A program made the translations under genes and the position numbers. 64,000 nt of DNA from an uncultured Verrucomicrobiae bacterium (GTDB lineage: Bacteria > Verrucomicrobiota > Verrucomicrobiia > Limisphaerales > UBA1096): assembly GCA_937770485.1 (NCBI GenBank), contig CALJHX010000034.1, positions 1 to 64,000 on the forward strand, read 5' to 3'. The notes beneath the pieces were generated by a model that was given only the letters and a program-made list of their open reading frames with translations, did not search any database and was not told the origin of the DNA. Shown here piece by piece: positions 1-27,728 of the stretch. How positions within the stretch are numbered: position 1 is the first letter of the stretch; the number at the start of each line of letters is the position of its first letter.

Positions 1-345
1 CGTCTTGCCGCCGTGTTTGCGGAGGAGGTTGGAAGTTTCGGTTTTATTTTCTGCAGTTAAAACAACTGCTCAATCTAGCGATGTGCTACCGTTAATATCC
101 TGCACATTCACATCCGCACCTTTAGTAATGAGTAGTTCGGTGACTTCCTTGTAGCGTCCTAAAGAGGCTCGATGCAATGATGTCTCATCAAAAATATTTT
201 CTGCATTCACATCTGCACCTTCAGCCAAGTGCTGCTTCACGGCTTCGATGTTTCCAGTTCTGGCAGCTTCGTGAATAGCCACACTCGGCCCACACCCCAC
301 CAGCACGAAGGCTGCGATTGTTGCCAGTAGGAGGTGTTTGATTTG
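1..345 (-). pseudogene. ankyrin-repeat lipoprotein, inactivated (no start codon, internal stop)
   Basis: The minus-strand reading gives ankyrin repeats (EAVKQHLAEGADVN, EVTELLITKGADVN). Upstream of the tracked GTG the frame continues as KHLLLATIAAFVLVGCGP, a lipoprotein signal with an LVGC lipobox. The codon where Met should stand (340-342) is ATC. A TGA at 70-72 interrupts the third repeat after GSTSLD. Beyond it the same frame stays open to the window edge and reads AVVLTAENKTETSNLLRKHGGKT, a normal ankyrin tail, so the TGA most likely replaced a TGG Trp codon. Two point changes therefore disable an otherwise intact frame. Ankyrin repeats bind proteins; the target is unknown. The gene may end beyond the window edge. 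A sequencing error at either site is the alternative. Confidence 0.7.
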
Positions 346-356
346 GCAGGAACTAC

Positions 357-2072: not shown

Positions 2073-2586
2073 TACAATGACTTTCCTTTGATTTTCATTT
2101 TAAACCTTACATGGGAAATTTCCTGCACTTAAAGAAGGAGTTTACCACGAAACACAAAAAACCGTTCATTGAAAAAATCAATGTTAGCATTGAGTGAATC
2201 AATACTCACCCAGCCAACAGCACGGTGACGATTTTTTGTGAGTAGAACGTGTTTCATTTGCCTTTAGCTTTCAATTCTGTATCCGTCTATGCAGAGGAGG
2301 TCGGTAATTTTGGTTCGTTTGTATCGCATCGCAATATCTAGTGGAGTCTGGTCATTCTTATTCCAATCACACTCATTAGTAGATGGCCCGCTTAGTGAAC
2401 TCTGTGATACCAGTGTTGGCAGTTCCTCAAATACAAGTTCACCACTGTTTTTCTGTAGTTAAGGGCACTTCTTGAAACAGGAGACTCTTTCGATTAGTGT
2501 TTATTAAAAAATATTATAAATATAAGTTTTGGAAGCATCGGAGCCTCACTCAATCCACGGCTTTTGAGTAAGGCCTGGCAGTTGAG
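2073..2586. other. non-coding interval with ankyrin debris
   Basis: No intact gene is visible in these 514 bases. The part at 2264-2458 is a decayed ankyrin repeat (separate entry). The rest is AT-rich, with TTTATTAAAAAATATTATAAATATAAG near 2502-2526 that could hold promoter elements, but no defined site can be supported. Confidence 0.5.
2264..2458 (-). pseudogene. ankyrin-repeat gene remnant
   Basis: Read on the minus strand, the frame ending at TAA (2264-2266) gives NECDWNKNDQTPLDIAMRY followed by KRTKITDLLCIDG. This is a recognisable last ankyrin repeat (xDQTPLDIAxxxKxxxIxDLL). The frame opens after a stop at about 2459-2461 with no usable start codon, and the preceding residues do not look like ankyrin. 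It is a 3' fragment, too short for the ORF track. Its tail resembles that of the pseudogene at 1-345, so the two may be decayed paralogues now separated by the GNAT-aminotransferase gene. Confidence 0.6.
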
Positions 2587-5500: not shown

Positions 5501-5919
5501 TGGATCCGCTCCTTGACAGCCATCAAGTCACGCCAGTCGTGGGAACCATCTTGATTCCGGTCCTGAAGCCAGGGTTTGTTTTGTTCGCTCAGTTCCGGGG
5601 CCATTTTACTCCGGAACATTTTTCGAAGCTGGGGAATATTTTGATTCGAAAGATCGTCAATCACCCATTCCTTGTGGGCCCGGATATCAATGTCCACTGT
5701 CCCCCTGCGAGCCGTCTCAACAACAAACAGCCGCCCCTGATAGTCAAAGCTAAGCGCGACTGGATTCAGTAGCATCGGTTGCTTGGCCCATTCTGTCAGT
5801 TTGAGAGATTTGTCATGCAACTCAAATGGTATTTGCACCCGAGGATTTTGAGCCCGTACTTGGCTAGGCCCGCAGGCCGCAAACGCAGCGAATCCTAAAA
5901 TAAAAAAACGAAAAAGCAT
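2587..5919 (-). CDS. PVC-type secreted heme-binding propeller/HEAT-repeat protein
   Basis: The domain order is an export signal (MLFRFFILGFAAFAACG, possibly a lipoprotein), a six-bladed propeller of the membrane-bound dehydrogenase family (about 40-450: LSFDYQGRLFVVET, GDNGFSVR, GLRNVQELAFDEFGNLFSVD), then HEAT repeats (about 500-950: VQFHAAMALGQAGDSSIVPG). A C-terminal cytochrome-c-like module has a CVRCH heme motif near residue 990 and GPELGGIGKRV. This architecture is typical of Planctomycetes and Verrucomicrobia and is thought to oxidise sugars or alcohols outside the cytoplasm. I chose ATG 5919 over the track's TTG 5967 because the signal peptide begins there. Calcium-like DxDxDGxxD repeats (QDTDDDGKAD, NDTNHDGYAD) lie in the propeller. 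The substrate is unknown. Confidence 0.9.
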   Translation of the reverse strand: MLFRFFILGFAAFAACGPSQVRAQNPRVQIPFELHDKSLKLTEWAKQPMLLNPVALSFDYQGRLFVVETARRGTVDIDIRAHKEWVIDDLSNQNIPQLRKMFRSKMAPELSEQNKPWLQDRNQDGSHDWRDLMAVKERIHLLQDTDDDGKADVAKVFAEGFNQEINGVMAGVLPYRGDVFATIYPDVWKLNDTNHDGYADKQEVFIHGFGVHAAFDGHDLHGLTIGPDGKLYFSVGDNGFSVRTREGKLLHHPNTGGVLRCNWDGSNLEVFATGLRNVQELAFDEFGNLFSVDNDGDIRKERERFVYITEGSDSGWRLNWQFKKGGWPRQTKTPEYCPWIDEKLWLPHWKGQAAYITPPMSEFSVGPGGFKYNPGTALNDRYKGSFFLCEFPVQKVTAFKTEPQGAYFKMVDEHIFLFGMMASAINFGPDGSMYVANWDGKWQPNELGSIWVVDDPAIRRSEKRKQVAELLRSNYSSHPDAFLVDLLAHEDQRIRLEAQFELAKRDKFAELLKVAANTNAKRLARVHALWGLGQLEDNSQRDKRLARRLPFTDSDFEIRAQAAKLAGTRKVKSCAAKLADLLHDENSRVQFHAAMALGQAGDSSIVPGLIALLERNDDRDAYLRHAAIMGLAGSAGPAQLSAQNKHESAAVRVAAVATLRRLKHPGVKSFLADSSEWVLREAVSAVHDDESIPEALPAVADLLPSSTSQSEAITRRLLSANLRVGKAVNAERLLAYALDQSKPSAMRAEALLCLGDWNRRPFVDRVEGRVRELSKRDDSLAGKLILANLQDLFEASDSELLAELIRLCEKLQIKLGAKSLLVIAKSESQDLSARVQAVQSVQVNKTQDASDQLIALLKSKHPEIQVAAVSKLAEIEPKTFARKMENNWRPLSLPAQQTFLSQLGTATSARGDEIVIDSLASLLVGELPKALELDVITSAKARQTPKLKQLIARYESRQSAEDPVASYRSTLVGGQPAKGKLVYDNHVAAQCVRCHSAGGKGNQVGPELGGIGKRVNKDYLLRSLITPNSDIADGFGVTVIELNNGEVLAGSIGNQTKKTLTLIPPQGKTREIPINTIKKTTESKTSVMPPVGAILTKHELRDLIAYLETL

Positions 5920-5967
5920 TTTTGGGTTAGTTTTATCGAGTCGACTCAAAAGAAGAGTCAACGGCAA

Positions 5968-6746
5968 CTCCCCTGAAAAGTGATATTTTTCCAGGGGCCA
6001 TCGTTGACTCGTGGAGAGCGGACTCTCTTCCGGTTTGGATTTCCATTCAACATTTCTTTCATAATTGCGGTCATACCCCGTTTTTATTCAGCTTGGTCCA
6101 GCGCTAGACTTAACGGCGTAATAGGCACGGGAGAGGAGGCAACTTGGCGACGGTGGGCAGACGGCTGCGCCGACCTTCGGTAATGAAGCCTGAACACGGT
6201 CTGGCGGAGTCGAATGGAGAACGGAGGATTCTTTTTTGTTCCGGCGGATCGGTCAGTTTCAATGGAACTGACGGTATGGTGGTCATGGAATACCTAGCGC
6301 TGACCTTAAAAATAAGTTTTCTAGATAAAAGTATAAATCCTCAATCATTCTGGTTAGAGTACTTGCTTCCCGGGGACTCAGGCTCGCTCCATTGATATGA
6401 GGTTGTTTCATTTGCTGACTAAGTGTCTTTAAGTAAAGAAAACGAAGTTTATTTTCGATGGAATTGGCGTTCTTTATACTAAAGGTAGATGTCCTTTGTT
6501 TTTGTTTTAGGGGATATAACGGGACAACACGCTAATTTTATGCTAAATGCATAGGGAAGAAATTAATGACTGAATATTAAAATAAATAGGATACGTTTAT
6601 GATCAGTTGCCTGTTTATGGAAGATAGATTTAATCAAAAGTTGTAGGTTTTGAATATACGCTAAAAATCTACCAGCGCTCGCAGAAAACTTAATAGTTGG
6701 ATGACTGTTGAAATGTTTTATTTAAAATAATGGAGCTAATTAACTT
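5968..6746. other. long intergenic region, no supported gene
   Basis: Short ORFs in the track here (67 and 83 residues) show no recognisable family, signal peptide or ribosome site. The first 350 bases are mixed composition and the last 400 are strongly AT-rich, leading to the sulfatase at 6747. The AT-rich stretch probably holds its promoter. I could not define -35 and -10 boxes with confidence. Confidence 0.5.
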
Positions 6747-8063
6747 ATGAAATTTACAATCTTATCTATCTTATTGTTGTCTCTTAGTGTTTTCGGCCAA
6801 ACTAAACCCAACGTAGTTTTTATTCTCTCAGACGATCAGGCCTGGGGAGACTATGGCTTTATGGGAAGCAAAGAAGTCCAAACCCCCCACATCGACAAGT
6901 TGGCACAAGAAAGCCTTGTTTTCAAACGAGGTTATGTCACTTCACCTCTTTGTCGCCCTTCTCTGGCATCTATGGCGACCGGACTTCATACACACCAGCA
7001 CAGAGTGACAGGCAACGATGTTGATGGCCGTAACAATAGAGCTGAGTTGGATAAGCCGGTACAAAAGTTCTTTAATCAACAAGCTAGCTTTATTAAAGAA
7101 CTGGTAAAGAACGGATACCTCGCCCATCAATCTGGTAAGTGGTGGGAAGGTTCCTGGAAGGATGGGGGTTTTACTCACGGTATGACTCATGGCGACCCCA
7201 AGCGCAAAGGTAGACACGGTGATGAAGGACTGTCTATTGGCCGTAAAGGGATGAAACCGGTAACTGATTTCATTGACTCTGCAGTAGTGAAGCAAAAGCC
7301 ATTTGCCATTTGGTATGCACCATTTTTGCCTCATACGCCACATAACCCACCAGAAAGGCTACTTAAAAAATACCAGCAGGAAGGGCGCGGTAAAGATGCA
7401 GCAAAATACTTCGCGATGATCGATTGGTTTGACGAAACTTGCGGTGAGCTTCTTGACTATATAATTACAAAGGAACAGGAAGACAATACTCTAGTGGTTT
7501 ACATCTCCGACAATGGCTGGAAGGCCCCCAGCCAATCCGATATGAGAATTCCAAAAAATTGGAATCAAGGTTATGCTCCAAGATCAAAAGGTTCTCCTTA
7601 TGAAAATGGAATTCGCACGCCGATTATGTTTAAGCTTCCAAGAAAAATAAAAGCTCAATTTTCAGATGATTTAGCCAGTGCTGTTGATCTCTTTCCGACA
7701 ATTCTAGCAGCCTGTGGTTTTGATGCTCCCAAGAATCTTCCGGGAATTAATCTTCTCGATACCGAAATTCGTAAAGAAAGAAAAGTTATCTTTGGTGCAG
7801 CTTATTCTATTTACAATATGACAGTTGGAAATCCGGCAGATACTCGCCAGTACAGATGGGCGATAACCAAGAAATGGAAGTACTTATTGCGAGACAAGGG
7901 TAGTGATACGACCAAGTATAAATATGTTCATCAATGGGATACAATCCCGGAACATTTATACGATCTGGAAAAGGATCAAGGTGAAAAGTTAAACGTCGTG
8001 TCTGACTTTCCAAAAGCCTCTCAAAAATTAAAAGCGAAACTCAATAATTGGCTTAGTGATTAA
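6747..8063 (+). CDS. secreted sulfatase with atypical active-site motif
   Basis: This is a 438-residue type I sulfatase with a signal peptide (MKFTILSILLLSLSVFGQ). KPNVVFILSDDQAWGDYG holds the two metal-binding Asp residues, and TSPLCRPSLASMATG holds the residue converted to formylglycine (Cys69). The C-terminal half carries VVYISDNGW with the metal-binding Asp-Asn. The usual maturation motif is C-x-P-x-R, but here it is C-R-P-S-L, so the Arg is absent. This variant may use a different maturation route or be poorly matured. It probably cleaves sulfate esters from polysaccharides in the periplasm or outside the cell. It is the most AT-rich sulfatase here. Its start ATG has only a weak upstream GGAG. 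Confidence 0.9.
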   Translation: MKFTILSILLLSLSVFGQTKPNVVFILSDDQAWGDYGFMGSKEVQTPHIDKLAQESLVFKRGYVTSPLCRPSLASMATGLHTHQHRVTGNDVDGRNNRAELDKPVQKFFNQQASFIKELVKNGYLAHQSGKWWEGSWKDGGFTHGMTHGDPKRKGRHGDEGLSIGRKGMKPVTDFIDSAVVKQKPFAIWYAPFLPHTPHNPPERLLKKYQQEGRGKDAAKYFAMIDWFDETCGELLDYIITKEQEDNTLVVYISDNGWKAPSQSDMRIPKNWNQGYAPRSKGSPYENGIRTPIMFKLPRKIKAQFSDDLASAVDLFPTILAACGFDAPKNLPGINLLDTEIRKERKVIFGAAYSIYNMTVGNPADTRQYRWAITKKWKYLLRDKGSDTTKYKYVHQWDTIPEHLYDLEKDQGEKLNVVSDFPKASQKLKAKLNNWLSD

Positions 8064-8562
8064 TTTCTATTACTGCCTTTTTTTATTCCATACTTTCAAG
8101 TATGGGATTTTGGCTTTAGAAGTCGGCTGAGTCTGTTATTGCTTGTTCCTCAGAATAAGGGATAAAAGCTTCACTTTCCTTGAGCAATGGATTGGCCAAG
8201 ATCTTGGTCAGGCCAGTTGGTCCAAGGGACAATCAAGGCCCTACCAGTCTGGCTTCATTATCGAGGCAAGTTCGAAATGAAAAAGAGAATAATTTAAAAA
8301 GTAGGATGAGTTGTATTTCATACATAACTTTGAAGCGATAATAGTTAGAACCATCGTCTTCGAATAGCCTTAAACGGTATCAACGCCATCGAAGCCATAT
8401 TGGTTTCCACAAAATTGCGTAGAGAGGAGAGTTGGTTGAGTCTGCCAGATCAGGAGCGTGAAGCGGGACAAATATTGAAGGCGATAACTCGCCAACATCA
8501 TCTTTTCCTTGGAAGTTCGTGGATTCATGGGCATTGTTTGTTTACCCAATCAAGGTTTAAAA
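8064..8562. other. intergenic region with hairpin and an orphan reading frame
   Basis: A hairpin CCATACTT-TC-AAGTATGG at 8088-8105 follows the sulfatase stop and may end its transcript, although only GATTTTGG follows it. From 8349 a plus-strand frame stays open to TAA 8571-8573 (74 codons), containing ALNGINAIEAILV and LPDQEREAGQILKAITRQ. It has no start codon and no family I can name, so it is probably a gene remnant. It overlaps the start of the ThuA gene. Confidence 0.35.
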
Positions 8563-9897
8563 ATGATAAATAACATAATGTTCCGCCTGCTGGGCGTAGT
8601 GGCAATACTAAGTATGACAACTGGGATCATCGCGGCCCCAAAGAAACTGTTGGTGGTAACGGTTACCAAGGGATTTCGTCATGGATCCATTCCAACGGCT
8701 GAGAAGGTTCTGGGGCAGTTGGCGAAGAGCAGCGGCGATTTTGAGGTCGATTATGTACGGAACGACGGGGACATAAAAACCAAGATGACCCTTGAATCGT
8801 TAAAGACAATTGATGGTGTGATTTTTGCCAACACCACGGGGGATCTGCCTCTTCCCGACAGGGAGGGCTTTGTCCAGTGGGTTAAGTCTGGGAAGGCATT
8901 TATCGGGATGCACAGTTGCAGTGATACATTCCATGGGTTTCCTGCCTTTGTGGATATGCTTGGAGGGGAGTTTCAAACACACGGAGCCCAGGCAAAAGTC
9001 GAGTGTCTTAATCAGGATTTGAGCCATCCTGCCGTTCGGCATTTTGGTGAAAGATTTACGGTTTACGATGAGATTTATCTACTAAAAAGTTTTCACCGAA
9101 ACCGTGTTCACGGGTTGCTGACTCTGGATAAGCATCCAAACAGCAAGATGCCCGGGGATTACCCTATTTCCTGGAACAAAAAAGTGGGAAGTGGCAGTAT
9201 TTTCTATACATCGCTTGGCCATCGAAATGATGTTTGGGAGAATGAGAAATACCAAGCTCACGTTCTTGGTGGAATTCGTTGGGCACTAGGTTTGGTTAAG
9301 GGGGATTCCAAACCTCAGGACACACGTTATCGTGTCAGTCAGGAGGAGGAAAAGGACGGTTTCAAACCTCTCTTTAACGGGGTGAACCTTGACGGCTGGA
9401 AACTTCGGAATCCTAATGGTCTCAAGAGCTGGAGCGCGCAAAATGGCATGCTGGTAAATGAAATCCCCAGCGGCAAACATGGCACCGACATTGTTTCCAA
9501 TTCGAAGTTCCGCGACTTTATTGTGAGGTACGAATACATGATTCCTGCGGGCAGCAACAGTGGCTTCTACCTCAGAGGGCGACATGAGATTCAAATCTTA
9601 GATGACTACAAGAATGGCAAACTGAAATCGGGTGGCAATGGTGGTATTTACAGTTTTTCTGCACCATCAAAATTTGTTTCCCGTAAACCAGGTCAATGGC
9701 AGACCGCCGAGGCCACAATCCGTGGCGATCTTGTCACCGTAATGCTCAACGGGGTCAAAATACATGATGGCTTAAAGGTGGATCGGAGTACCGGTGGTCA
9801 TTTGGATGAGAATGTGGACCAACCAGGGCCGGTTATGTTGCAGGGCGATCACGGGGCAATTGCCTTTAGAAAAATTCGGATTAAGCCGTTGCAATAA
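8563..9897 (+). CDS. secreted ThuA-like / DUF1080 fusion protein
   Basis: The N-terminal ThuA-like class I amidotransferase fold spans about residues 25-240 (KKLLVVTVTKGFRHGSIPTAE, FIGMHSCSDTFHGFP, GSIFYTSLGHRNDVW). The C-terminal half is DUF1080, the concanavalin-like fold of 3-keto-disaccharide hydrolases (FKPLFNGVNLDGWKLRNP, NSGFYLRGRHEIQILDDY, PGPVMLQGDHGAIAFRKI). A signal peptide starts at ATG 8563 or 8578; the track start at 8509 would put about 20 non-hydrophobic residues in front of it. The fusion is common in PVC bacteria and goes with degradation of glycosides through 3-keto intermediates. It sits between two sulfatases on the same strand, so it probably acts on the same glycan. Confidence 0.88.
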   Translation: MINNIMFRLLGVVAILSMTTGIIAAPKKLLVVTVTKGFRHGSIPTAEKVLGQLAKSSGDFEVDYVRNDGDIKTKMTLESLKTIDGVIFANTTGDLPLPDREGFVQWVKSGKAFIGMHSCSDTFHGFPAFVDMLGGEFQTHGAQAKVECLNQDLSHPAVRHFGERFTVYDEIYLLKSFHRNRVHGLLTLDKHPNSKMPGDYPISWNKKVGSGSIFYTSLGHRNDVWENEKYQAHVLGGIRWALGLVKGDSKPQDTRYRVSQEEEKDGFKPLFNGVNLDGWKLRNPNGLKSWSAQNGMLVNEIPSGKHGTDIVSNSKFRDFIVRYEYMIPAGSNSGFYLRGRHEIQILDDYKNGKLKSGGNGGIYSFSAPSKFVSRKPGQWQTAEATIRGDLVTVMLNGVKIHDGLKVDRSTGGHLDENVDQPGPVMLQGDHGAIAFRKIRIKPLQ

Positions 9898-9934
9898 AGC
9901 AGGCTTTCAAGTGGAAGGATGATTGTTCTTAGTG

Positions 9935-11290
9935 ATGTCTGTTCTTAACACAAAACAATTCACGGTCCGATTATTCCTTTTGATAATTGCGTGTTTCCTG
10001 GTGTCTATTGCCGAGGGCACTGCAAAAACAAAGAAGCATTACAATGTTATCCTGATAATGGCGGACGATTCGGCCGTTGATAACTATGGATGCTATGGCA
10101 GTACTTTCTTTAAAACTCCCCGATTGGATGCACTGGCGCGTACTGGAGCCAAGTTCAACCACTGCTATTCTGAGCCGGTTTGTACTCCCAGCCGGGTGAA
10201 GATCATGACCGGCCGCGACGGCATCCGGAATTACGTTCAATTCGGAACCCTAGACAGGGACGAGATCACCTTCGGAACGATGATGAAGCAAGCAGGCTAC
10301 GCTACGGCCATTGCTGGCAAGTGGCAGCTTCACGGAGGCAATCGTGGCACCCTTGCCCCTGCATGCGGCTTTGATACCTATTGTCTATGGAATTACCCCG
10401 GGACCGAGCGTTCGCGTTATTGGAATCCGAGCATTATGCAGGACGGAAAATTGCTGCAGACAGGCAAAGATGACTACGGCCCCGACATATTCACCAACTT
10501 TCTCATCGATTTTATAGGGAGGAACAAGAATAAGCCTTTCTTTGCCTATTACCCCATGGTGCTCGTTCACTCCCCCTTCCCCAAGTCACCTGACAATGTC
10601 GGGACTAATGGCAAAACTGCACAAGCCAAAGGTGAGGCGCTTGAGAATTTTAGAGGCATGACCCTTTACGCTGACAAGCTTGTTGGTAAAATCATTGACG
10701 CACTTGAAAGCCATGGTCTTCGGGAAAACACGGTTGTCATTTTCACAACCGACAATGGCACTCACCGAAGCCTCACTTATCCTTTCGGAAAGGAGAAACG
10801 CACCGGAGAAAAAGCTTTCGCCACTGAGGGCGGGTCCCATTCACCATTGATCATAAGCTGCCCGGGCACTGTCCCTACTGGTGTTGTGAGTGATGACTTG
10901 GTTGATTTTTCGGACATGATGCCGACGATTGCTGGGATCACCGGAGCCAAATTACCCAATGTCGAACTTGATGGACGCAGTTTCTGGCCACAGTGTCTCG
11001 GCCAAACGGGCAATCCCAGGAAGTGGATTTTTCAGTATTATTATCCAAAGTTCGTTCAAGCTGCCAAGAATCACGGCCAGGGCATCAATGGATTGGAAAT
11101 TGTCTGGGCCCAGAATCAACACTTCAAGCTGTACCGGGATGGGACGCTTTACGCAACAAGTGATCGCCATGAAGAAACGCCGATCGATTCGGGTGGTGAC
11201 AAAGAAGCTGATGCAGCACGAACACTTCTCAAGGGCGCGCTTGACTCCATGCCTTCGAGGGCCGGGAAACTTCAGCCAAAGAAGATATAA
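9935..11290 (+). CDS. secreted sulfatase (arylsulfatase-like)
   Basis: This is a type I sulfatase of about 451 residues. A signal peptide (VRLFLLIIACFLVSIAEG) precedes NVILIMADDSAVDNYGCYG, which supplies metal ligands. SEPVCTPSRVKIMTG is a canonical C-x-P-x-R maturation motif (Cys about 83). VIFTTDNGTHRS gives the C-terminal Asp-Asn metal pair, and TEGGSHSPLIISCPG is conserved in arylsulfatase A-like enzymes. ATG 9935 is preferred over the track's TTG 9923. The gene follows the ThuA-DUF1080 gene by 37 bases and may be cotranscribed with it. The substrate cannot be read from sequence, but neighbours point to a sulfated polysaccharide. Confidence 0.92.
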   Translation: MSVLNTKQFTVRLFLLIIACFLVSIAEGTAKTKKHYNVILIMADDSAVDNYGCYGSTFFKTPRLDALARTGAKFNHCYSEPVCTPSRVKIMTGRDGIRNYVQFGTLDRDEITFGTMMKQAGYATAIAGKWQLHGGNRGTLAPACGFDTYCLWNYPGTERSRYWNPSIMQDGKLLQTGKDDYGPDIFTNFLIDFIGRNKNKPFFAYYPMVLVHSPFPKSPDNVGTNGKTAQAKGEALENFRGMTLYADKLVGKIIDALESHGLRENTVVIFTTDNGTHRSLTYPFGKEKRTGEKAFATEGGSHSPLIISCPGTVPTGVVSDDLVDFSDMMPTIAGITGAKLPNVELDGRSFWPQCLGQTGNPRKWIFQYYYPKFVQAAKNHGQGINGLEIVWAQNQHFKLYRDGTLYATSDRHEETPIDSGGDKEADAARTLLKGALDSMPSRAGKLQPKKI

Positions 11291-11493
11291 AAGTTAACTG
11301 GCCTACTCCTCCTAAAACAGTAGCCCCCGTTAACTACTGAACCTAGTCCAGTTGGCGGTTTAAGGCTGTGGTAGTAGTTAAGGAACCAAATTCCAATGAT
11401 ACCCTTAGTTTTCGGAAGGTTTTAATGCTTTAAACCGCTGATAATATCCTGAGTATCAAACGGGTCAGCAAATTAATAAGTTGGGATCGGTGT

Positions 11494-11889
11494 TTGCACG
11501 GCAAATTGAAGATGATGAGCGGTAAGATTGATCAATTGGTTGGTAGGATGGTGAGGCCCATTGCTGGGTTGTTGCTGGCGGCGGGATCCTTGTTCTATCC
11601 CGGGTTGATGACCGTCCACGCCCAGACGGTGGATGCCAATTCTGTCCTAACCTATGCTATGGGATTCGACAGCATCACTATTACAGACTGTGAAGAAAGT
11701 GCATCCGGAGCATTGGTGATTCCGTCTTCTTTGGATGGGTACCCCGTACGTGCCATTGGGGAAAGTGCCTTCGCATGGTGGAACGATCTGACGAGCGTAA
11801 CGATTGGCAGCAACGTCGCCAGCATTGGGGGTTCTGCCTTCCAGGGTTGCAGTAGCCTCACAGCTTCACGCAAAAGGCATTATCACTAG
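11494..11889 (+). pseudogene. truncated BspA-type leucine-rich-repeat protein
   Basis: The first 125 or so residues are a secreted BspA-like LRR_5 protein. They have a signal peptide (MVRPIAGLLLAAGSLFYPGLMTVHAQ), then VIPSSLDGYPVRAIGESAF, LTSVTIGSNVASIGGSAFQ and GCSSLT. After CSSLTA the repeat stops abruptly and the frame ends in RKRHYH. In the next frame (11865-11990) the sequence reads FTQKALSLAYKWKELPKNF and then LLGSWYLFDF to a TAA. That looks like the tail of some other protein. A deletion seems to have joined an LRR gene to unrelated coding sequence out of frame. Intact members usually carry many more repeats. It is probably nonfunctional. Confidence 0.65.
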
Positions 11890-12068
11890 CTTACAAATGG
11901 AAGGAATTGCCCAAGAATTTTAAGACTTTGCTTGGTAGCTGGTATCTATTTGATTTCAGCCTGAATACTAAAATCTCAAAGGCAAAATAAACGGTGCAAA
12001 AAGCGAAGTTGATCCAGGCTAGAATGATTGACTTAACCAAGCGGACGGAGAGACTAACAGCAGTTTGC

Positions 12069-13175
12069 ATGACGATTTACAGATGGATTACAATGGCTGC
12101 GTTTCTTTGGCCGTTTAGCCAAGTGATGGCAGAGGAACGAGTTCAGGGCCGACGTTCGCTCGTGCTGGAGAATGACAAGGCGCGCCTGGTATTGGATATT
12201 GCCGGCGGTTCGATTCCTGAGTTTCGCTTTAATGACTCCGAACTTAACCCGCTCAACTGGGGCCGCCGCAACCCGGGCGATCAGCCCGGCTCGATGGGCC
12301 ACTTTCTCTGCTGCGACCGTTGGGGCCCTCCGTCTGATGCAGAAGGGAAAAACGGCATGCCCTATCACGGTGAATCCGCAAAAGTTATTTGGAGTGTGTT
12401 GCAGGATACCGAGACAACAGCTGCTGGCATTCACGCCCGTATGACGGCGGATTTGCCGCTAGCAGGGTTGGCAGTTGATCGCTCCGTGACTTTGGCCGCG
12501 TCCTCGCCGTTTTTTGTTGTCAGCGAGACGATCACGAATAACAACAAGCTCGGTCGCATTTTCAATATTGTACAGCATCCGACTATTGGCCCGCCGTTCC
12601 TCGATGAGAATTGCGTAGTCGATTCCAACGGCCGCCGCGGGTTTGCGCAGGGCGGCTTGATGCCGAATCCGGAGCAGCCGGAGTTTCTTTGGCCAAGCGC
12701 GATTACAAAGGGTGGCAAACGGGTTTTAATGCGTCGAATGACCGATAGTGAAGAACCAAGCGTCACCTCGTTCGTGATCGACGAAGACCTAGGCTGGGTG
12801 ATCGCCAGCAACGGAAAAAGGGGGTTGCTGTTCGGTTACGCCTGGAAGCGGAGCGACTATCCGTGGTTCAATCATTGGTGGAAGTTAAAGGATGGCAAAC
12901 CGCATGCGCGCGGGTTGGAGTTTGGTTCTACTGGACTGCATCAGCCATTTCCGGTGTTGGTAAAGAAGAGGGAAATTTTCGGTCAACAATTGTTCGAATA
13001 TCTCGATTCGGGCAAGAATATCACCAAGAGCTATGCCTGTTTTTTGGCGAAGATACCGGACGACTTTGCGGGTGTTAGTAAGGTGGTTATCGATGGCGAG
13101 TCGCTGGTAGCCACCGAGCGTGTGGGGAAGCGACCTCGTACGATTAAAATTGCCACCGGTGGTTTGATTCGGTAG
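12069..13175 (+). CDS. secreted protein, possible galactose-mutarotase-like fold
   Basis: No confident family. From ATG 12069 the protein has a signal peptide (MTIYRWITMAAFLWPFSQVMAEE) and about 368 residues. RRSLVLENDKARLVLDIAGG and SIPEFRFNDSELNPLNW resemble the opening of aldose-epimerase or glycoside-hydrolase-associated beta-sandwiches, in which a sugar ring binds a beta-supersandwich. LGRIFNIVQHPTIGPPFLD and GHFLCCDRWGPP are distinctive. The start was moved from GTG 11994 because the signal peptide begins at 12069. It lies between the broken LRR gene and a sulfatase, 24 bases upstream of the latter, so a role in the same glycan pathway is likely but inferred. Confidence 0.6.
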   Translation: MTIYRWITMAAFLWPFSQVMAEERVQGRRSLVLENDKARLVLDIAGGSIPEFRFNDSELNPLNWGRRNPGDQPGSMGHFLCCDRWGPPSDAEGKNGMPYHGESAKVIWSVLQDTETTAAGIHARMTADLPLAGLAVDRSVTLAASSPFFVVSETITNNNKLGRIFNIVQHPTIGPPFLDENCVVDSNGRRGFAQGGLMPNPEQPEFLWPSAITKGGKRVLMRRMTDSEEPSVTSFVIDEDLGWVIASNGKRGLLFGYAWKRSDYPWFNHWWKLKDGKPHARGLEFGSTGLHQPFPVLVKKREIFGQQLFEYLDSGKNITKSYACFLAKIPDDFAGVSKVVIDGESLVATERVGKRPRTIKIATGGLIR

Positions 13176-13199
13176 TGCCCGCTTAGACGTAAAGAACAA

Positions 13200-14720
13200 A
13201 TGAACAACTCAAAGGCATTCCTCCCTGTAACCTTTATTTTTGCAATGTTTGTTGCAAGTCTTGAAGCGGCAGAGTCTCGACCTAACATTCTTTTCTGCAT
13301 CTCCGACGATCAGTCTTATGCTCATGCGGGAGCCAACGGGGATCCGGTGGTGAAGACGCCGGGATTTGATCGTGTCGCACGCGAAGGGTTGCGATTTATT
13401 CATGCGTTTTGTGATGCCCCGACTTGTGGTCCTTCGCGGAGTGCCATTCTTACGGGACAACCGATTTGGCGATTGGAAGAGGCCGGCAATATTCATAGTA
13501 CTTTGCCGGCGAAGTTTGCTACCTACACCGAGCTGCTTGAGGATGTTGGTTATGCAATTGGTTTCACCGGTAAAGGCTGGAGCCCGGGTCGACTTGAGGC
13601 GGGTGGCCGAACGACAAATCCGGCTGGTCCTCGGTTCGAAGGCAAGGAATTGAAGCCTCCCTTCAAGGGCATGACAAAAAAAGACTATGCAGGAAACTTC
13701 GACGACTTTTTCGCGCAAGTGTCTAAAGACCAACCATTCTGTTTCTGGCTGGGGACGCACGAACCGCACAGAGGTTTCGAGAATGGTGCGGGGCGACGAA
13801 CCGGAAAAGATCCGGCCAATGTCGTAGTGCCGCCGATCTTTCCAGATCATCCGATTGTGAGAAGTGACATCCTCGATTACTATGTGGAGATTGAGCATTT
13901 TGATCGCATGGTCGCCCGAGCGATCAAAACCCTGGAAACAGCCGGCCAGCTTGAGAACACCATCGTTGTGGTCACAAGCGATCACGGTATGCCGTTTCCG
14001 CGAGCCAAGGCTAGTCTGTACGACGAAGGTACCCGTGTGCCGTTGGCGATTCGTTGGCCAAAGGGTATTCGGAACCCAGGTCGCGCTGTTAACTCGTTCG
14101 TGAATCTCAGCGATCTGGCATCGACTTTTCTGGAGACGGCTGGCTTGCAGCCTCCACAAATGATGACCGCTGTCAGCTTGATGGATGTGTTTGCCAATAA
14201 ACCGAAGGCAGCTCGCGCAAGTGCTTATATTGCAATGGAGCGGCACGATGGTTGTCGCAAAGGTGGTAAGGGATTTCCGTGCCGGGCGATTAGGACGAAA
14301 GATTTTTTGTACATTAAAAACTATGAACCCGACCGCTGGCCTGCAGGTAATCCAGACCGGGAGTTCTGCGCCCGCTACATCCCGTTTGGCGAAGTCGACT
14401 CCTCGCCGACCAAGACATTGATAATGGAGAACAAAGACAGGCCAGGCTTCAAGCGCTTTTATGATTTGGCTTTTGCCAAGCGGCCGGCCGAAGAACTCTA
14501 TTTACTCAAGAGCGATCCCGGTCAACTTGTCAATTTGGCGGGAAATCCCGAGTTTGCAGATATGCAGAAGAAGCTGCGCTCGGAACTGCAGAACCATTTA
14601 ATTGAAACCAAGGATCCTCGCGCGCTTGGTCTGGATGCGCCTTGGGACTTTTATCCCTACTACGGCTTACGCCGAAATAAAAACTGGTCGGTCGATCTGA
14701 AGACTTCTTCAAAAAACTAG
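13200..14720 (+). CDS. secreted sulfatase (N-sulfoglucosamine sulfohydrolase-like)
   Basis: This 506-residue sulfatase has a signal peptide (FLPVTFIFAMFVASLEAAE) and the metal site RPNILFCISDDQSYAHAG. The canonical maturation motif is DAPTCGPSRSAILTG with the formylglycine Cys at about 76. WLGTHEPHRGFENGAGRR and VVVTSDHGMPFPRAKASLYDEG are typical of the sulfamidase/heparan N-sulfatase-like branch common in PVC bacteria. The C-terminus contains EELYLLKSDPGQLVNLAG, a conserved ending in these families. It follows the mutarotase-like gene closely. Substrate assignment within the branch is an inference. Confidence 0.92.
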   Translation: MNNSKAFLPVTFIFAMFVASLEAAESRPNILFCISDDQSYAHAGANGDPVVKTPGFDRVAREGLRFIHAFCDAPTCGPSRSAILTGQPIWRLEEAGNIHSTLPAKFATYTELLEDVGYAIGFTGKGWSPGRLEAGGRTTNPAGPRFEGKELKPPFKGMTKKDYAGNFDDFFAQVSKDQPFCFWLGTHEPHRGFENGAGRRTGKDPANVVVPPIFPDHPIVRSDILDYYVEIEHFDRMVARAIKTLETAGQLENTIVVVTSDHGMPFPRAKASLYDEGTRVPLAIRWPKGIRNPGRAVNSFVNLSDLASTFLETAGLQPPQMMTAVSLMDVFANKPKAARASAYIAMERHDGCRKGGKGFPCRAIRTKDFLYIKNYEPDRWPAGNPDREFCARYIPFGEVDSSPTKTLIMENKDRPGFKRFYDLAFAKRPAEELYLLKSDPGQLVNLAGNPEFADMQKKLRSELQNHLIETKDPRALGLDAPWDFYPYYGLRRNKNWSVDLKTSSKN

Positions 14721-14852
14721 TTTTTTCGCTGGCCTCTGAAACTCCTACTTTTCACAACAATTTCCGCTGGGGAAAAATAGCAATCGCATTTACATATCGA
14801 TCATCAATTGGCGATTCTGAGCGAGCTACTTGGTCAAGCGCTGGTTCGTGGC

Positions 14853-16106
14853 TTATTTTGTTTTTGTGAAAGACCAGCGGATCAATTCCTGACGATCCTT
14901 GATCAGGATTCCTTCTTTAAGAAGGACTGGCGCAGCCCAAGTTGAACGATCAGCCACTTTGTATTCCGCGACCTTTCTCGACTCGGCTCCCTTGGCTTCG
15001 ATGATTTGCAACTGGCCATTGTCGAGCAGGGCAACGAGATGCCCAGGGATAGAGAGAAACGCCACGTTTTGACCTACACGACCAGGGCCCTGCCAGATGA
15101 TGTTGCCTGACTCAGTGTCGATACAGAAAAGCTGGCCCAAGCCTTGATGTGTCATGCCGTAAAGCTGCCCGTTGTTGATGACAGCTGTGCTCATGTCGAG
15201 AGGGGCGCGTTTTTGGTTCCATTTCTCGGTGACGACCCATTTGCCTTCTTTAATATGTGGATGAATGCTTCGCATGCCACGGTTTTCGCCGCCCACCAAA
15301 ACGTGCTCGTTGTGGATCGTGGGAGTCGGCATGTTTTGATTCGATCCCCGGTGAGGCAGGTGGTACTTCCAGAGGAGTTGGCCGGACTGGATTTCGATTC
15401 CAAGCAGGTCCTCGTGGTTCCATTCGACGATTTGTCGTACGCCTCCAAACTCAGCGAATAGTGGCGAAGCATAGGCGGTTCCGTCTTTACCATGCCGCCA
15501 GATTTCTCTTCCTGTTTCTACATCGAGCGCTGTTAGGAAACCCTTCTCGTCATCGCCAAAGTGCACATAGAGCCGATCATTAATTACGAGGGGCGAGGTA
15601 GCCATTCCCCAATATGGATGAGGGCGTTTACCAAACTTAGAGCGATGATCGACTGTCCAAAGTCGAGTCCCGGACTTGGCGTCCCAAGCGGAAAGAATAC
15701 CGGTTATCCCCATGGTGAAAAAACGACCATTCGCGAGAGTGGGATTTGATTTCGGCCCCTTGCCGTGAGATTGGCCACCGCCACCTATCTTGAAAGGAAC
15801 CGAGTAGTGATTGCGCCACTTTGTTTTGCCGGTTTCCAGGTTGAGACACCAAATAGCTTCGTCCTCCTTTTGGCGGGTGTGAAGATAAACGAGCCCGCCA
15901 TCGACAACTGGAGAGCCATAGCCGTCACCGACGTTTACCTTCCAATTCTGCTTAAGTTGCTTGGGCCATTTTTTTGGTGGCTTAAAATAGGAGACCCAGC
16001 CATTACGCTTGGGCCCCATCCATCCTGGCCAAGCGACCTCTGCCTGGCTTCTCGATGAGGTTGAAATGAAGCCGATAACAACTGAAAAAATTAGTATTAC
16101 TCGCAT
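14853..16106 (-). CDS. secreted PQQ-like beta-propeller protein
   Basis: This 417-residue protein has a signal peptide (MRVILIFSVVIGFISTSSRS) followed by repeated PQQ/quinoprotein blades: CLNLETGKTKW, AWDAKSGTRLW, ALDVETGREIW, GIEIQSGQLLW, CIDTESGNIIWQG. The repeats fit a seven- or eight-bladed propeller. Many PVC proteins of this shape are exported and of unknown activity. Some are quinone-dependent alcohol dehydrogenases, but the catalytic dehydrogenase signatures are not seen, so a binding or scaffold role is equally possible. It converges with the sulfatase cluster and lies just inside the integrase remnant that bounds the AT-rich region. Confidence 0.85.
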   Translation of the reverse strand: MRVILIFSVVIGFISTSSRSQAEVAWPGWMGPKRNGWVSYFKPPKKWPKQLKQNWKVNVGDGYGSPVVDGGLVYLHTRQKEDEAIWCLNLETGKTKWRNHYSVPFKIGGGGQSHGKGPKSNPTLANGRFFTMGITGILSAWDAKSGTRLWTVDHRSKFGKRPHPYWGMATSPLVINDRLYVHFGDDEKGFLTALDVETGREIWRHGKDGTAYASPLFAEFGGVRQIVEWNHEDLLGIEIQSGQLLWKYHLPHRGSNQNMPTPTIHNEHVLVGGENRGMRSIHPHIKEGKWVVTEKWNQKRAPLDMSTAVINNGQLYGMTHQGLGQLFCIDTESGNIIWQGPGRVGQNVAFLSIPGHLVALLDNGQLQIIEAKGAESRKVAEYKVADRSTWAAPVLLKEGILIKDRQELIRWSFTKTK

Positions 16107-16848
16107 TATTCAAAGAATACGGGTTGAAATTAGTTGAAATCATTACTGTCGACGAGTTTCAAAAATGTACCGGTTTCACAAGGTCAAATTCAATCCTTCG
16201 CAAATACTGGAGCGAGATGGGGTAAGAATCGAAAGCTGAAAGGAAATAATTCTACAAATTAGAAATCACACTTACCACTTCCCGGAGTCTATCCAGTTCA
16301 GGGTGAGTGTGTTTCTGCTTCATAGCGTCATGTTGCCTGACCTCACTGGCAAATCCCCTTGTTCGCGAGCATGGAGTTGAAACTGTGCCGTAAAGAATGG
16401 AATGAAAACCGGTTGATGGTTCGCCCTTTGCCTTCTCCCTTGCGGTAGTGTTGGGGGGTCGATACCAGGCTTCTCCATTAACTCGGCAAATATTTTTTAA
16501 AGCCCGATTTCCCCTCCTGTTTGTCTCCCTGCGAGAGTGCGAAGAATGGTGGCTTATGGGGCATCCTGATCTAGCACACGGCGGTTAGTCTGCTTGGTTG
16601 AACGCTTGGTGCGCGAACCATCAGGAGTTGTGAAACAGCAATACCAGTATGGGAGTTCGGTTTACGAGTAAGTGAGGCTATGAGAATGATAAGCAAGACC
16701 GTTGGATCAGTGCGCAAGGTTGTGAGGACGGTACTTAAAGTCCTTTGTCTTGCGGAAACTACTCCCAGTTTTTTTACTCAATGGGAATAGCGGTGATTTA
16801 CTTTTTATTTTCCAGAGCCACGGCTAGGCCTCCGGCGAAAAGGCTGAG
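16107..16848. other. intergenic region holding a decayed integrase
   Basis: This 742-base interval has no intact ORF. The minus strand at 16250-16610 contains broken tyrosine-recombinase sequence (separate entry). I recognise nothing in 16620-16848. It separates the AT-rich accessory segment from the GC-rich opp operon. Confidence 0.6.
16250..16610 (-). pseudogene. tyrosine recombinase (phage-type integrase) C-terminal remnant
   Basis: Three minus-strand frames join into an integrase C-terminal half. PHKPPFFALSQGDKQEGKSG is followed, after a frame change, by KIFAELMEKPGIDPP, then GKGRTINRFSFHSLRHSFNS and MLANKGI. After a further shift come SEVRQHDAMKQKHTHPELDR and LREVVSVISNL, ending at a stop near 16250. 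HSLRH is the conserved HxxRH box, and the KHTHPELDRLREVV segment matches the usual region of the catalytic Tyr. Verrucomicrobial integrases commonly read FHSLRHSFNSALANAGV and YTHLELE here. Several frameshifts and a TGA make it inactive. In this copy the nucleophilic Tyr position reads as His. Confidence 0.75.
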
Positions 16849-24225: not shown

Positions 24226-24247
24226 TTAGTTGGTGTGTTCTCATTAA

Positions 24248-24274
24248 GCCGCCCGCAAGGGCGGCTTTTTTTTT
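24248..24274 (+). terminator. rho-independent terminator
   Basis: GCCGCCC-GCAA-GGGCGGC is a perfect 7-base-pair stem followed by nine T residues. It sits 22 bases after the PEP-CTERM stop and separates that transcript from the helicase gene. Confidence 0.9.
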
Positions 24275-24317
24275 GCCCTAGTTTGGTATTAAATTCTCTG
24301 ATTGGAACAGTTCAATA

Positions 24318-27062
24318 GTGAGTGATGTAAAACAAAAGATACGTTATCTGCGGGAATGCTATTCTTCAGACAGTAGCGGGATTGAAATATTGAATATATT
24401 CTCACGTTCAGTTGAACATCGGATATTCATTGAAGGAGGGAATGAGTTAGCGTTTGAGGGGGATCACCAAATCCCATTGGATAAAGATGCAGGAAGTGCA
24501 GCACATGAGGCTGCAATAGTGTATGAACGTGAGAAGGAGCTTATTTATGCATCGATATTTGTAGCGGGAAAAAATCCAGAAACAGCTGAAAAAACCGTTT
24601 CTCCTTTGGTGGTGTTTCCAGGAAAAATTGAAAAGATTGCTGGTTTTCCATTTCTTTCTTTTGATTCAACAAACTTCAGAATTAACTATGGCTTAATTAA
24701 GAGAATCATAGTGGATGATGAAAAGAGTTCGCTTTTGCATGAGCAAATCTTTGAAGCGGTGGCAGATGGTCTTTTCAGGCCGGAGGGAATCGCTGCAATA
24801 GTGGATTCCTTCAAATGTTTAGCCAGTGATATTGATGTATCACAAATGATTTTCTTTCCGCATGCGAAAGCGTCAACAGATTTAAGAAAACAAGCAGTTA
24901 ACGAGGGTTTAAAGGTATTACCAGCAGGTTGTGTTGCTTTAATAAAGCGATCCATTGAGCGTCGTGGTATTTTGGAGGAATTAGCCATAATGTCTGACGC
25001 GAATAAGTTTTCTAAACCAATTTGCGAACTTTTGGGCGTAGCTGGGTCAAAAGACCGTACGAGAGAAAAGAAAACAAAGTTGGAAAAAATACCAGCAGTT
25101 TTAAGTGTTCCTCAAAGCAACATTCTAAAATCCTGTGCTCAAAACCCAGTGACATTGGTGATTGGGCCTCCTGGAACAGGGAAATCGTACACAATTGCCT
25201 GTATGGCGTTGGAGCATATGGCGAGGGGGAAATCGGTGTTGATTGCTTCAAGAAAAGACCATGCAGTAGACGTAATCGGACAAAAGATTGAAACACTCTC
25301 TGGTGACAAATCGAGCGTTATTCGTGGAGGGAGAAAGAAATATTTGTCCGAATTGAAAACTAGGTTGCAAGCGATTTTGAGCGGTATGCGAGGCAGGAAG
25401 AAAGCGGCAACTTTGCAAGGCCACGCAGAAGCGGAGACAATCAAACTAACTCAATCCATAGAAGGTATTGAGAGAAACATCAAAAAATCTGAGTCAGTTT
25501 TCAACAAGCGATCTGAACAGGAGAAAGAGTATGCCAGCATCCAAGAAAAATTGTCCCAAGGTGGATTTCAACTCATTAGCAAAATCAGATTATTTATCCT
25601 TCAGCACAGCATTAATTCCAGAAAAGAATCTTTTGACGTATTAATCAAATCGATCGAACACAAAATTGATATTAGAAATCGGGATGTAATCAAGCGAATT
25701 GGAATAAGAAAAGACGCGAGGGTTCATGAGGTGCTTGCGAGCAATCGAAAAACATTGATGGATTTTCTTAAATCCCTCAGGGCTAGGACAGGGGCGAAGC
25801 AGCGCGATATGCTTTCAAAACTGGATATCGGGATGATCTTGAAAACGTTTCCGGTCTGGATGTCTAAGAATTCCGACATTCACGACAATATGCCGCTGAT
25901 TCCGGAAATGTTTGATTTGGCGATAATAGATGAGGCAACTCAATGTGACATTGCAAGTTGTCTTCCTATCCTGCAACGGGCCAAGCGGGTTGCTATTGTG
26001 GGAGATCCAAAGCAACTGCGACATGTCTCTTTTCTTGCTAGAAGCAAGCAAGCCATACTGGCCACAAAAGAAGGACTGGGTGCGGAAGTTGCAGATCAAT
26101 TGGATTACCGATCCAAGAGTATTCTTGATCTTGCAGAGGAGACGATAACCGAACAACAACGAGTCCAATTTTTGGATGAACATTACCGGAGTCGTCCAGA
26201 TATCATTCAATTCAGTAATCGTCATTTTTACAACGGTTCACTTCGTATTATGACCCAAAATCCGGAGTTGGTCCGATTCCGAAATATCCAAGTGATTCAA
26301 TGTAATGGTGTTCGGGAAAAAAATGGCATCAATAGAAATGAATCTGAGAAATTATTAAAACTCATTCGGGATACAGTTGAGTCCCAAAGTCACCTAGAGT
26401 CCGAGTACTTGCAAAGTATTGGCGTAACAACTCCGTTTAGGCATCAAGCTGATTATCTCGGAGAGTTGATTCATCGTGAAGTACCCATTGAGGCAATCCA
26501 AAAACATAAGATCTTAGTTGGAACGCCTCATTCATTCCAAGGAGAAGAGCGCGATATTATGTGCCTTTCGTTTGCGTTGGATGAGAAATCATCCGCTACT
26601 GCGTTTCGATATATGAACCAACCAGATGTTTTCAATGTCATGGTCACTCGAGCGAGAGTTCAGCAGGTCGTCTTTCTTTCTATTAGAGAGGGCGATTTAA
26701 AGAAAAACTCATTGCTAGCTTCCTATTTGTTGTATTTGAGAGGTTATTATCAAGAACCTACGTGTGGGCAGTTATCTCAGCTTCCTGATTCCGCTCTCCC
26801 AGTGTATGATGCGTTAAATAAAGCCGGATATAAAGTGTGGCCGTCGTTTGATGTCGCTGGGATGGAGATGGATTTCGTAATTCAGAAAAAGGGAAGAACG
26901 TTGGGGATTGATTTAATCGGTTTTCCTGGTCGATTCGAGGATGCGTTTAGCTTGGAGCGATATAAAATGTTAAAGCGTGCCGGGATGCGAATATTCCCCT
27001 TGGCTTATTCCGAATGGGGGAGGTCTCAAGAGGAATGTTTGGATTCGATTCGAGAGTTTTAG
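24318..27062 (+). CDS. SF1 (Upf1/DNA2-type) helicase with C-terminal Vsr/MTES_1575-like nuclease domain
   Basis: This 914-residue protein starts at a GTG. Residues 1-240 match nothing I know. The AAA_11/AAA_12 helicase core begins at about 265: Walker A VIGPPGTGKSYTIA (about 283), a charged, probably coiled insert (380-500), Walker B LAIIDEATQCDIAS (about 540), motif III GDPKQLRHVSFL, motif IV EHYRSRPDIIQFSN, motif V VGTPHSFQGEERDIM and motif VI NVMVTRARVQQVV. Residues 820-914 resemble Vsr/DUF559-type nucleases: AGYKVWPSFDVAGMEMDFVI, then LGIDLIGF and GMRIFPLAYSEW. Asp852 and Asp865 would be the acidic pair, but the usual E-x-K/ECDG box is altered to IDLIG. The gene is AT-rich, solitary and palindrome-free, as expected for acquired defence genes. 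A repair or RNA role is possible. Confidence 0.8.
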   Translation: MSDVKQKIRYLRECYSSDSSGIEILNIFSRSVEHRIFIEGGNELAFEGDHQIPLDKDAGSAAHEAAIVYEREKELIYASIFVAGKNPETAEKTVSPLVVFPGKIEKIAGFPFLSFDSTNFRINYGLIKRIIVDDEKSSLLHEQIFEAVADGLFRPEGIAAIVDSFKCLASDIDVSQMIFFPHAKASTDLRKQAVNEGLKVLPAGCVALIKRSIERRGILEELAIMSDANKFSKPICELLGVAGSKDRTREKKTKLEKIPAVLSVPQSNILKSCAQNPVTLVIGPPGTGKSYTIACMALEHMARGKSVLIASRKDHAVDVIGQKIETLSGDKSSVIRGGRKKYLSELKTRLQAILSGMRGRKKAATLQGHAEAETIKLTQSIEGIERNIKKSESVFNKRSEQEKEYASIQEKLSQGGFQLISKIRLFILQHSINSRKESFDVLIKSIEHKIDIRNRDVIKRIGIRKDARVHEVLASNRKTLMDFLKSLRARTGAKQRDMLSKLDIGMILKTFPVWMSKNSDIHDNMPLIPEMFDLAIIDEATQCDIASCLPILQRAKRVAIVGDPKQLRHVSFLARSKQAILATKEGLGAEVADQLDYRSKSILDLAEETITEQQRVQFLDEHYRSRPDIIQFSNRHFYNGSLRIMTQNPELVRFRNIQVIQCNGVREKNGINRNESEKLLKLIRDTVESQSHLESEYLQSIGVTTPFRHQADYLGELIHREVPIEAIQKHKILVGTPHSFQGEERDIMCLSFALDEKSSATAFRYMNQPDVFNVMVTRARVQQVVFLSIREGDLKKNSLLASYLLYLRGYYQEPTCGQLSQLPDSALPVYDALNKAGYKVWPSFDVAGMEMDFVIQKKGRTLGIDLIGFPGRFEDAFSLERYKMLKRAGMRIFPLAYSEWGRSQEECLDSIREF

Positions 27063-27077
27063 GTTTCCTGGGTTTTC

Positions 27078-27728
27078 CTAGCTGATTTCAAAGAAACCGC
27101 CAATGTCTTCATAAGTTTGAAATACCTGATCCGCGCCCGCTTGCTCTAGTGCATTTGCCTTGAACGTATTTGTGATGGCCAAAACCGTCATTCCAGCCGC
27201 CTTGCCGGCCAGAACTCCGGAAACGGTATCTTCGATCACACAGCACTTTTTAGGCATCACACCCAGGCGCCTAGCCGCCAGGAGGAAGGTATCTGGGGCA
27301 GGCTTGGGCTTTTCCACATCCTCTGAACTTGCAGTGCACCGGAAATAACGGCGCAAGTCTCGCATTGCCAGGACTTCGTCAATAATTCGATGAACAGAAC
27401 CTGAGGCAACGGCAAGTGGGAGTTGCTTTGCCAAGCACTGAACCAATTTCGGGACACCATCGAAGATAGGCTGCTTGTCGCGAAGTATTTGAAGCAGTCG
27501 TTCCTCTCTGAGTCCGAGGAGTTCCTCGATGGGTTGCGTGGGATGATGCTTTTCGATGAAGGTCTCCCAAAGGACGCGGTCGGATCGGCCGTAAAAATCG
27601 GGAAAGTGGATACCGTGATTGTCGCCGTAACCCATCTCCTGCCAGAGTTCCAAAAACGACATTTCATGAATCGGCTCACTGTCGACGATCACGCCGTCCA
27701 TGTCGAAAATTACCGCGTCGAACCGACT
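27078..27728 (-). CDS. HAD-superfamily sugar-phosphate phosphatase/phosphomutase-like
   Basis: 216 residues from ATG 27728, chosen because it is preceded by GGGAGGGGAA, a strong ribosome site. Motif I FDMDGVIVDSEPIHEMS has the nucleophile Asp and a cap typical of beta-phosphoglucomutase-like HADs. Motif II is AVASGSV, motif III is the Lys in EDVEKPKPAPDTF, and motif IV is CCVIEDTVSGVLAGKAAGM. It lies 25 bases downstream of a ribulokinase-like gene on the same strand, so it may act on the sugar phosphate that kinase makes. General phosphatase activity is the safe call. Confidence 0.88.
   Translation of the reverse strand, partial: SRFDAVIFDMDGVIVDSEPIHEMSFLELWQEMGYGDNHGIHFPDFYGRSDRVLWETFIEKHHPTQPIEELLGLREERLLQILRDKQPIFDGVPKLVQCLAKQLPLAVASGSVHRIIDEVLAMRDLRRYFRCTASSEDVEKPKPAPDTFLLAARRLGVMPKKCCVIEDTVSGVLAGKAAGMTVLAITNTFKANALEQAGADQVFQTYEDIGGFFEIS

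Follow-up and report, generated by a model that had tools for sequence, protein, structure and literature searches.

Why does an uncultured Verrucomicrobiae bacterium carry, between two ordinary genes, a lone gene for a helicase with a nuclease-like tail, and what does this gene do for its host? A sequence-only reading of the window, i.e. of the whole stretch of 64,000 nucleotides analysed, had proposed it as a candidate single-gene defence system. The ~900-aa proteins to which its product belongs, which combine a helicase with an altered Vsr-like domain, are an undescribed family. Judging from its sequence and those of its relatives, we read it, at about even confidence, as an accessory gene for a helicase-nuclease that stands alone, moves horizontally and most likely protects its host, as a single gene, from phage or other foreign nucleic acid.

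The gene and its surroundings

The open reading frame (Table 1) is uninterrupted by stops, and the gene is present as a single copy in its own genome assembly (83% complete). Compared within the 64,000-nt window it is AT-rich (GC 0.42, GC3 0.39 versus a GC3 of 0.51–0.85 for the flanking genes from 16.8 to 34 kb). The upstream neighbour encodes a PEP-CTERM protein, whereas the downstream one, a HAD phosphatase gene, is convergent and separated by a gap of 15 bp. The AT-richness, the strong terminator just 5' of the gene and the ordinary neighbours had already been pointed out in the sequence-only reading and were all found again. Its further argument that the gene lacks the genomic palindrome was dropped, as counts of 6-mer palindromes in the window did not reproduce it as evidence: the palindrome had not been named, the most over-represented one, TGGCCA, occurs once in a gene that is AT-rich and by its length would be expected to hold 3.5 copies. 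As a separate feature, positions 1–16800 of the window have a lower GC content (about 0.42–0.55) than the remainder and contain sulfatase-like genes, with a sharp shift in composition near 17 kb.

Table 1. Features of the helicase locus, in positions of the window
Feature	Position	Strand	Basis
Intrinsic terminator behind the upstream PEP-CTERM gene, marking the variable site's left edge	24246..24274	+	kept in eight species without the helicase gene
Variable segment: gene and short spacers	24279..27117		comparison with eight empty congeners
Complete gene for a solitary ~900-aa protein: DUF4011-like region, Upf1-like SF1 helicase, altered Vsr-like domain	24318..27062	+	914 aa, GTG start; full-length relatives
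N-terminal region, residues 1–255, divergent DUF4011-like	24318..25082	+	Pfam in homologue; profile-profile match
Walker A / helicase motif I GPPGTGKS, residues 283–290	25164..25187	+	GPPGTGK invariant in family alignment
Extended insertion, mostly helical, between motifs Ia and II, residues 346–500	25353..25817	+	dN/dS 0.27–0.31; helices from low-confidence model
Walker B / motif II DEATQC, residues 538–543	25929..25946	+	alignment
Motif III GDPKQL, residues 562–567	26001..26018	+	alignment
Second RecA-like domain, AAA_12, motifs IV–VI, residues 608–785	26139..26672	+	Pfam E 8e-21
C-terminal Vsr/MTES_1575-like PD-(D/E)XK-fold domain, residues 815–914	26760..27059	+	Pfam, hhalign, model, Foldseek, dN/dS
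D852, invariant acid, counterpart of the first catalytic Asp of Vsr-like domains	26871..26873	+	20/20 family members, 4/4 canonical relatives
D865 of IDLIG; Glu in canonical relatives (VEVDG)	26910..26912	+	Asp in 20/20 family members, Glu in 4/4 canonical relatives

Domain architecture

The central part of the protein is an Upf1-like SF1 helicase by its motifs I, II, III and VI and by its Pfam matches to AAA_11 (residues 267–568, E 7e-23) and AAA_12, so that the complete core motifs claimed earlier are borne out; the nearest solved structures by sequence are NAM7/Upf1 and SMUBP2. The insertion at residues 346–500 is the fastest-evolving part of the protein. Its helices come solely from a low-confidence single-sequence AlphaFold model of the whole protein, which with a mean pLDDT of 34 was unusable.

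The N-terminal 240 residues had been said to resemble nothing familiar, a statement that needs some correction. Residues 1–276 of the window protein gave no Pfam match, but homologues match the C-terminal part of DUF4011 weakly (in the Persicobacter one E 5e-4, 20.5 bits versus a cut-off of 22.2), and the N-terminal profile of the family matches a DUF4011 profile at a probability of 80% (E 1.4e-5), with reversed or shuffled controls at about 2% or less. A search of plasmids with the N-terminus alone gave no match, and a PDB sequence search with the N- and C-terminal profiles gave chance-level matches only. The profiles weakly suggest that this region is DUF4011-like, rather than DUF4011 itself.

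The C-terminus matches MTES_1575 (PF18741) at residues 829–913 with an E-value of 4e-8, its 33.6 bits lying under the gathering cut-off of 38.2, and hhalign of the C-terminal profile against canonical domains gave a probability of 96% (E 2e-9). An AlphaFold model of the domain (pLDDT 80, pTM 0.73) shows the order helix-three strands-helix-strand-helix; its input consisted of 16 aligned rows from the window and fetched loci, 12 of them canonical or near-canonical domains of viral contigs, and the modelled fold is therefore informed by these. Foldseek searches with the model found NGO0050 (3HRL, probability 1.00, TM 0.59/0.72) together with 3R3P, the Vsr-like homing endonuclease I-Bth0305I (probability 0.98–0.99), at modest E-values of 0.015–0.043. 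As modelled, the domain has a PD-(D/E)XK/Vsr fold with an alpha-beta-beta-beta-alpha-beta core. The proposal of a Vsr/MTES_1575-like C-terminus, based on the strings GMEMDF, IDLIG and YSEW (all present as quoted), is supported by both sequence matches, and the model, in which the lack of a nuclease fold had been named as a refuting outcome, contains such a fold. The claim of a solitary fusion of helicase and nuclease fold stands likewise, by the helicase Pfam matches, the modelled fold and the lone position of the gene.

An altered active site under strong constraint

Canonical relatives carry the motif D...VEVDG..H...D..R, whereas the ~900-aa family has D852...IDLIG. In an alignment of 20 family members the Asp of ExD is replaced by Ile or Val, and the canonical active-site His and the helix (second) Asp are missing as well, while D852, D865, G868, G871, L885, R887 and W900 are invariant in all 20. 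By this alignment both probable metal-binding acids, D852 and D865, have been kept and the other catalytic positions lost.

Relative to the copy in G006, dN/dS is 0.127 for the whole gene, 0.037 for the Walker A region, 0.032 for the C-terminal domain, 0.158 for the N-terminus and 0.309 for the helical insertion. The C-terminal values against G008 (0.043) and G007 (0.053) are similar, so this domain (0.03–0.05) is constrained to the same degree as Walker A, and the tail is therefore functional. Purifying selection on the gene is comparable to that on the flanking genes. Since dN/dS is low and the residues are invariant in 20 members, the altered motif is, by the alignment, a family trait and not the product of decay; a decayed nuclease is thereby ruled out, and the earlier idea that altered E/Q-x-K positions mark a subtype agrees with the invariance. 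Whether the altered site still catalyses is a matter of judgement, and we put this marginally below an even chance. Another changed active site was seen in a Hhe-like protein of a viral contig (L053:12728-13111), whose MTES_1575 motif reads GIMLDGESYRR.

Some copies are disrupted as assembled. Frameshifts were seen in G007 (L003 near 6600, run of 8 A) and G618 (L073 near 11760, run of 8 G) and apparently in G595 (L074), and the G845 copy has an in-frame stop. Assembly errors, pseudogenes and slippage sites are all possible explanations for the frameshifted copies.

Presence and absence at one site

Within the genus, the gene lies between the same flanks in four species (G000, G006, G007 and G008), whereas the site is empty in eight congeners (G011, G018, G009, G004, G010, G001, G005 and G013). 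In these the terminator and the HAD gene are adjacent on one contig with no gene between them, a short spacer of tens of bp up to about 430 bp leading directly to the 3' end of the HAD gene. Species with and without the gene are interleaved in the flank trees, G000 and G006 grouping with the empty G011, G007 standing by the empty G009 and G008 by the empty G013. Identity between the window and G008 is 90–96% in the gene, 89% in the next 500-bp window and 74–85% further out. This profile suggests a recent recombinational exchange via flank homology; a chimera of MAG assembly is a possible alternative, the G008 contig stopping inside the gene. Because of the empty sites in congeners, the sequence comparison supports horizontal mobility of the gene.

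Family and neighbourhoods

About 20 family members were found, in Verrucomicrobiota and on one Bacteroidota megaplasmid. Beyond the own genus they share 28–33% identity with the window protein, including full-length relatives in G298 (33%) and Persicobacter, the megaplasmid member (30% over 99%). Family f41 carries the gene in 18 of 260 genomes, which fall into 5 of 16 genera. The ~900-aa proteins group together in a motor-core tree (SH-aLRT 93), separate from the 1,100-aa helicase/MTES_1575 and the Hhe-like proteins; the branches are long and the exact joins therefore unsure. Among IMG/VR viral contigs, protein and C-terminal queries found no family member and the full alignment found distant helicases only, and phage records gave distant helicase-core matches, none full-length. 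On the Persicobacter megaplasmid, the homologue has transposase-like genes upstream of it (L039:4296-10472), an IstA/IstB-like pair among them.

The homologues lie among ordinary genes, which change from genus to genus; the same neighbours are met again only in close relatives. As no partner gene recurs beyond these, the gene appears to be a single-gene unit. No defence islands were found around the homologues, and a scan of ten neighbours gave one full match to SoFic and one SNF2-type helicase with generic matches. The expectation of synteny near known defence loci was thus disappointed apart from this one specific defence gene, in G660. The opposite expectation, a consistent housekeeping context that would speak against defence, held as regards the ordinary neighbours and failed as regards consistency, since the context varies between genera. 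In G660, 13 bp separate the family gene from the full-length SoFic single-gene defence homologue, and the two are convergent (L072:177-1292 and 1306-3999). In genus g310 (L069, L108, L109 and L110) the helicase gene has a metallophosphoesterase gene (ILSDLHLGH) adjacent or close by, and in G575 the two overlap by 4 bp; the pairing is confined to this genus, which rules out a general operon.

Comparison with named defence systems

The protein matches models of Hhe, ProA, Mokosh and PDC-S37, with Mokosh the best PADLOC match by score; ~1,100-aa relatives score equally high or higher on the same models, so that the PADLOC matches are generic to Upf1-like helicases. These relatives (L075, L076 and L078), Upf1-like helicases with an MTES_1575 domain, form the nearest other group in the tree, and their N-termini are matched by the family profile at a probability of 95%. 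They differ in being longer and in their canonical VEVDG...H active site, and the two scanned exceed the MTES_1575 cut-off.

Hhe (the DUF4011 anti-phage helicase, NF042953; Klebsiella plasmid copy L079) has a like domain order, a DUF4011-type N-terminus (in the window protein a region that is weakly DUF4011-like) followed by an Upf1-like helicase and MTES_1575. However, it has ~1,900 aa versus 914, its active site is canonical (IECDG..YH, versus IDLIG) and Hhe-like proteins form a separate clade in the motor-core tree. Membership is excluded by the curated whole-protein model, on which the window protein reaches 102 bits versus a cut-off of 2000, and by the missing canonical MTES_1575 active site.

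In CnuH of CoCoNuT type III-B, an Upf1-like helicase with a helical insertion is directly fused to a Vsr-like PD-(D/E)xK domain (PMC11090510). The window protein too fuses such a helicase to a Vsr-like fold, here with altered catalytic residues. CoCoNuT III-B belongs to the McrBC-type systems, whereas the window gene is solitary among ordinary neighbours; there are no McrB/McrC homologues in an operon with it and no match to the McrC family (PF10117) in G000, G006 and G008 (own genome 83% complete), which excludes membership. Mokosh (MkoA/MkoC) likewise has an Upf1-like helicase in a defence protein, but its nuclease domains are PLD (type II) or NERD (type I) (PMC10952713). Neither gave a Pfam match in the window protein, which is therefore not a Mokosh protein.

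In the anti-phage protein Hna, a ssDNA exonuclease, the ATPase activity competes with the nuclease activity (PMC13381803). As a single-protein helicase/nuclease it may offer, in its partitioning of the two activities, a working model for the window protein; the likeness is one of architecture, Hna being a demonstrated ssDNA exonuclease whereas the nuclease here is predicted from sequence and model. MTES_1575 has been described as a Vsr-type REase fused to SF-I helicase, HEPN and wHTH domains (PMC3710099), so the architecture was already known and the new part is the altered site together with the compact form. Furthermore, the core genes of P. aeruginosa include a DUF4011 gene adjoining a defence hotspot (PMC10250203), and the domain alone is thus no proof of defence.

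Function

For a protein whose family, fold, strong purifying selection and presence or absence at a fixed site are established, we infer the following mechanism. The Upf1-like motor would load onto single-stranded or aberrant DNA or RNA, with the DUF4011-like N-terminus gating recognition together with the helical insertion, which evolves fast. ATP-driven translocation on the aberrant nucleic acid might then control or license the Vsr-like domain, which would either cut the bound strand, with D852 and D865 as a metal site reduced to two aspartates, or grip the substrate uncut.

Defence is a plausible and, from architecture and mobility, the best reading of these sequences. It is favoured because the domain plan is common to named defence helicases (the Hhe, ProA, Mokosh and PDC-S37 models), because the gene is mobile (eight empty versus four filled sites), patchy (18/260) and functionally retained (dN/dS 0.127), and because it is a single-gene unit with SoFic beside the G660 copy and Hna as a precedent (PMC13381803). 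It is weakened by the ordinary neighbours, the lack of defence islands and of IMG/VR members, the generic PADLOC matches and the loss of canonical nuclease residues (the Asp of ExD, the His and the second Asp). In its most specific form, to which we give somewhat less than even weight, the gene would be an undescribed single-gene anti-phage system, a compact DUF4011-like/Upf1 helicase in which two aspartates (D-Xn-IDLIG) form the centre of a rebuilt Vsr-type nuclease. Marine Verrucomicrobia species would exchange it by recombination in the conserved flanks, and it would not reside in defence islands.

Compatible with defence is a defence or surveillance helicase with a pseudo-nuclease tail, in which the Vsr fold would act as a non-cutting nucleic-acid grip or dimer interface. 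The loss of the ExD Asp, active-site His and helix Asp from the family fits this possibility, the new invariants G871, R887 and W900 suggest a rebuilt surface and the very low dN/dS is compatible with a structural role; however, all 20 members have acidic residues at both likely metal-ligand positions, for which a mere grip would have no need, and we give it somewhat less than an even chance. A non-defence helicase for accessory nucleic-acid maintenance, exchanged between species and acting, like Upf1/SMUBP2, on aberrant RNA, R-loops or stalled ends, seems unlikely to us. NAM7/Upf1 and SMUBP2 are indeed the closest solved relatives, the contexts are ordinary and kept among close relatives, and purifying selection is on par with that on flanking genes, but patchy spread and clean absence in congeners would be odd for such a gene, and few parts of the protein are as constrained as the nuclease-fold tail. 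Very improbable is a selfish or decaying gene drifting through genomes with no host benefit: the frameshifts in G007, G618 and apparently G595 and the stop in G845 would suit it, yet dN/dS is 0.03–0.17 everywhere but in the insertion, the gene has no mobility functions and the two inspected frameshifts lie in homopolymer runs of MAGs and are maybe assembly errors.

Implications

The conserved yet altered D...IDLIG motif makes it possible to test cleanly how much rebuilding a Vsr-type active site tolerates, and at 914 aa the compact protein is easier to express than Hhe proteins of ~1,900 aa. If the defence reading is true, some one-gene systems sit outside defence islands, where island-based searches miss them, and spread via exchange at an ordinary intergenic site.
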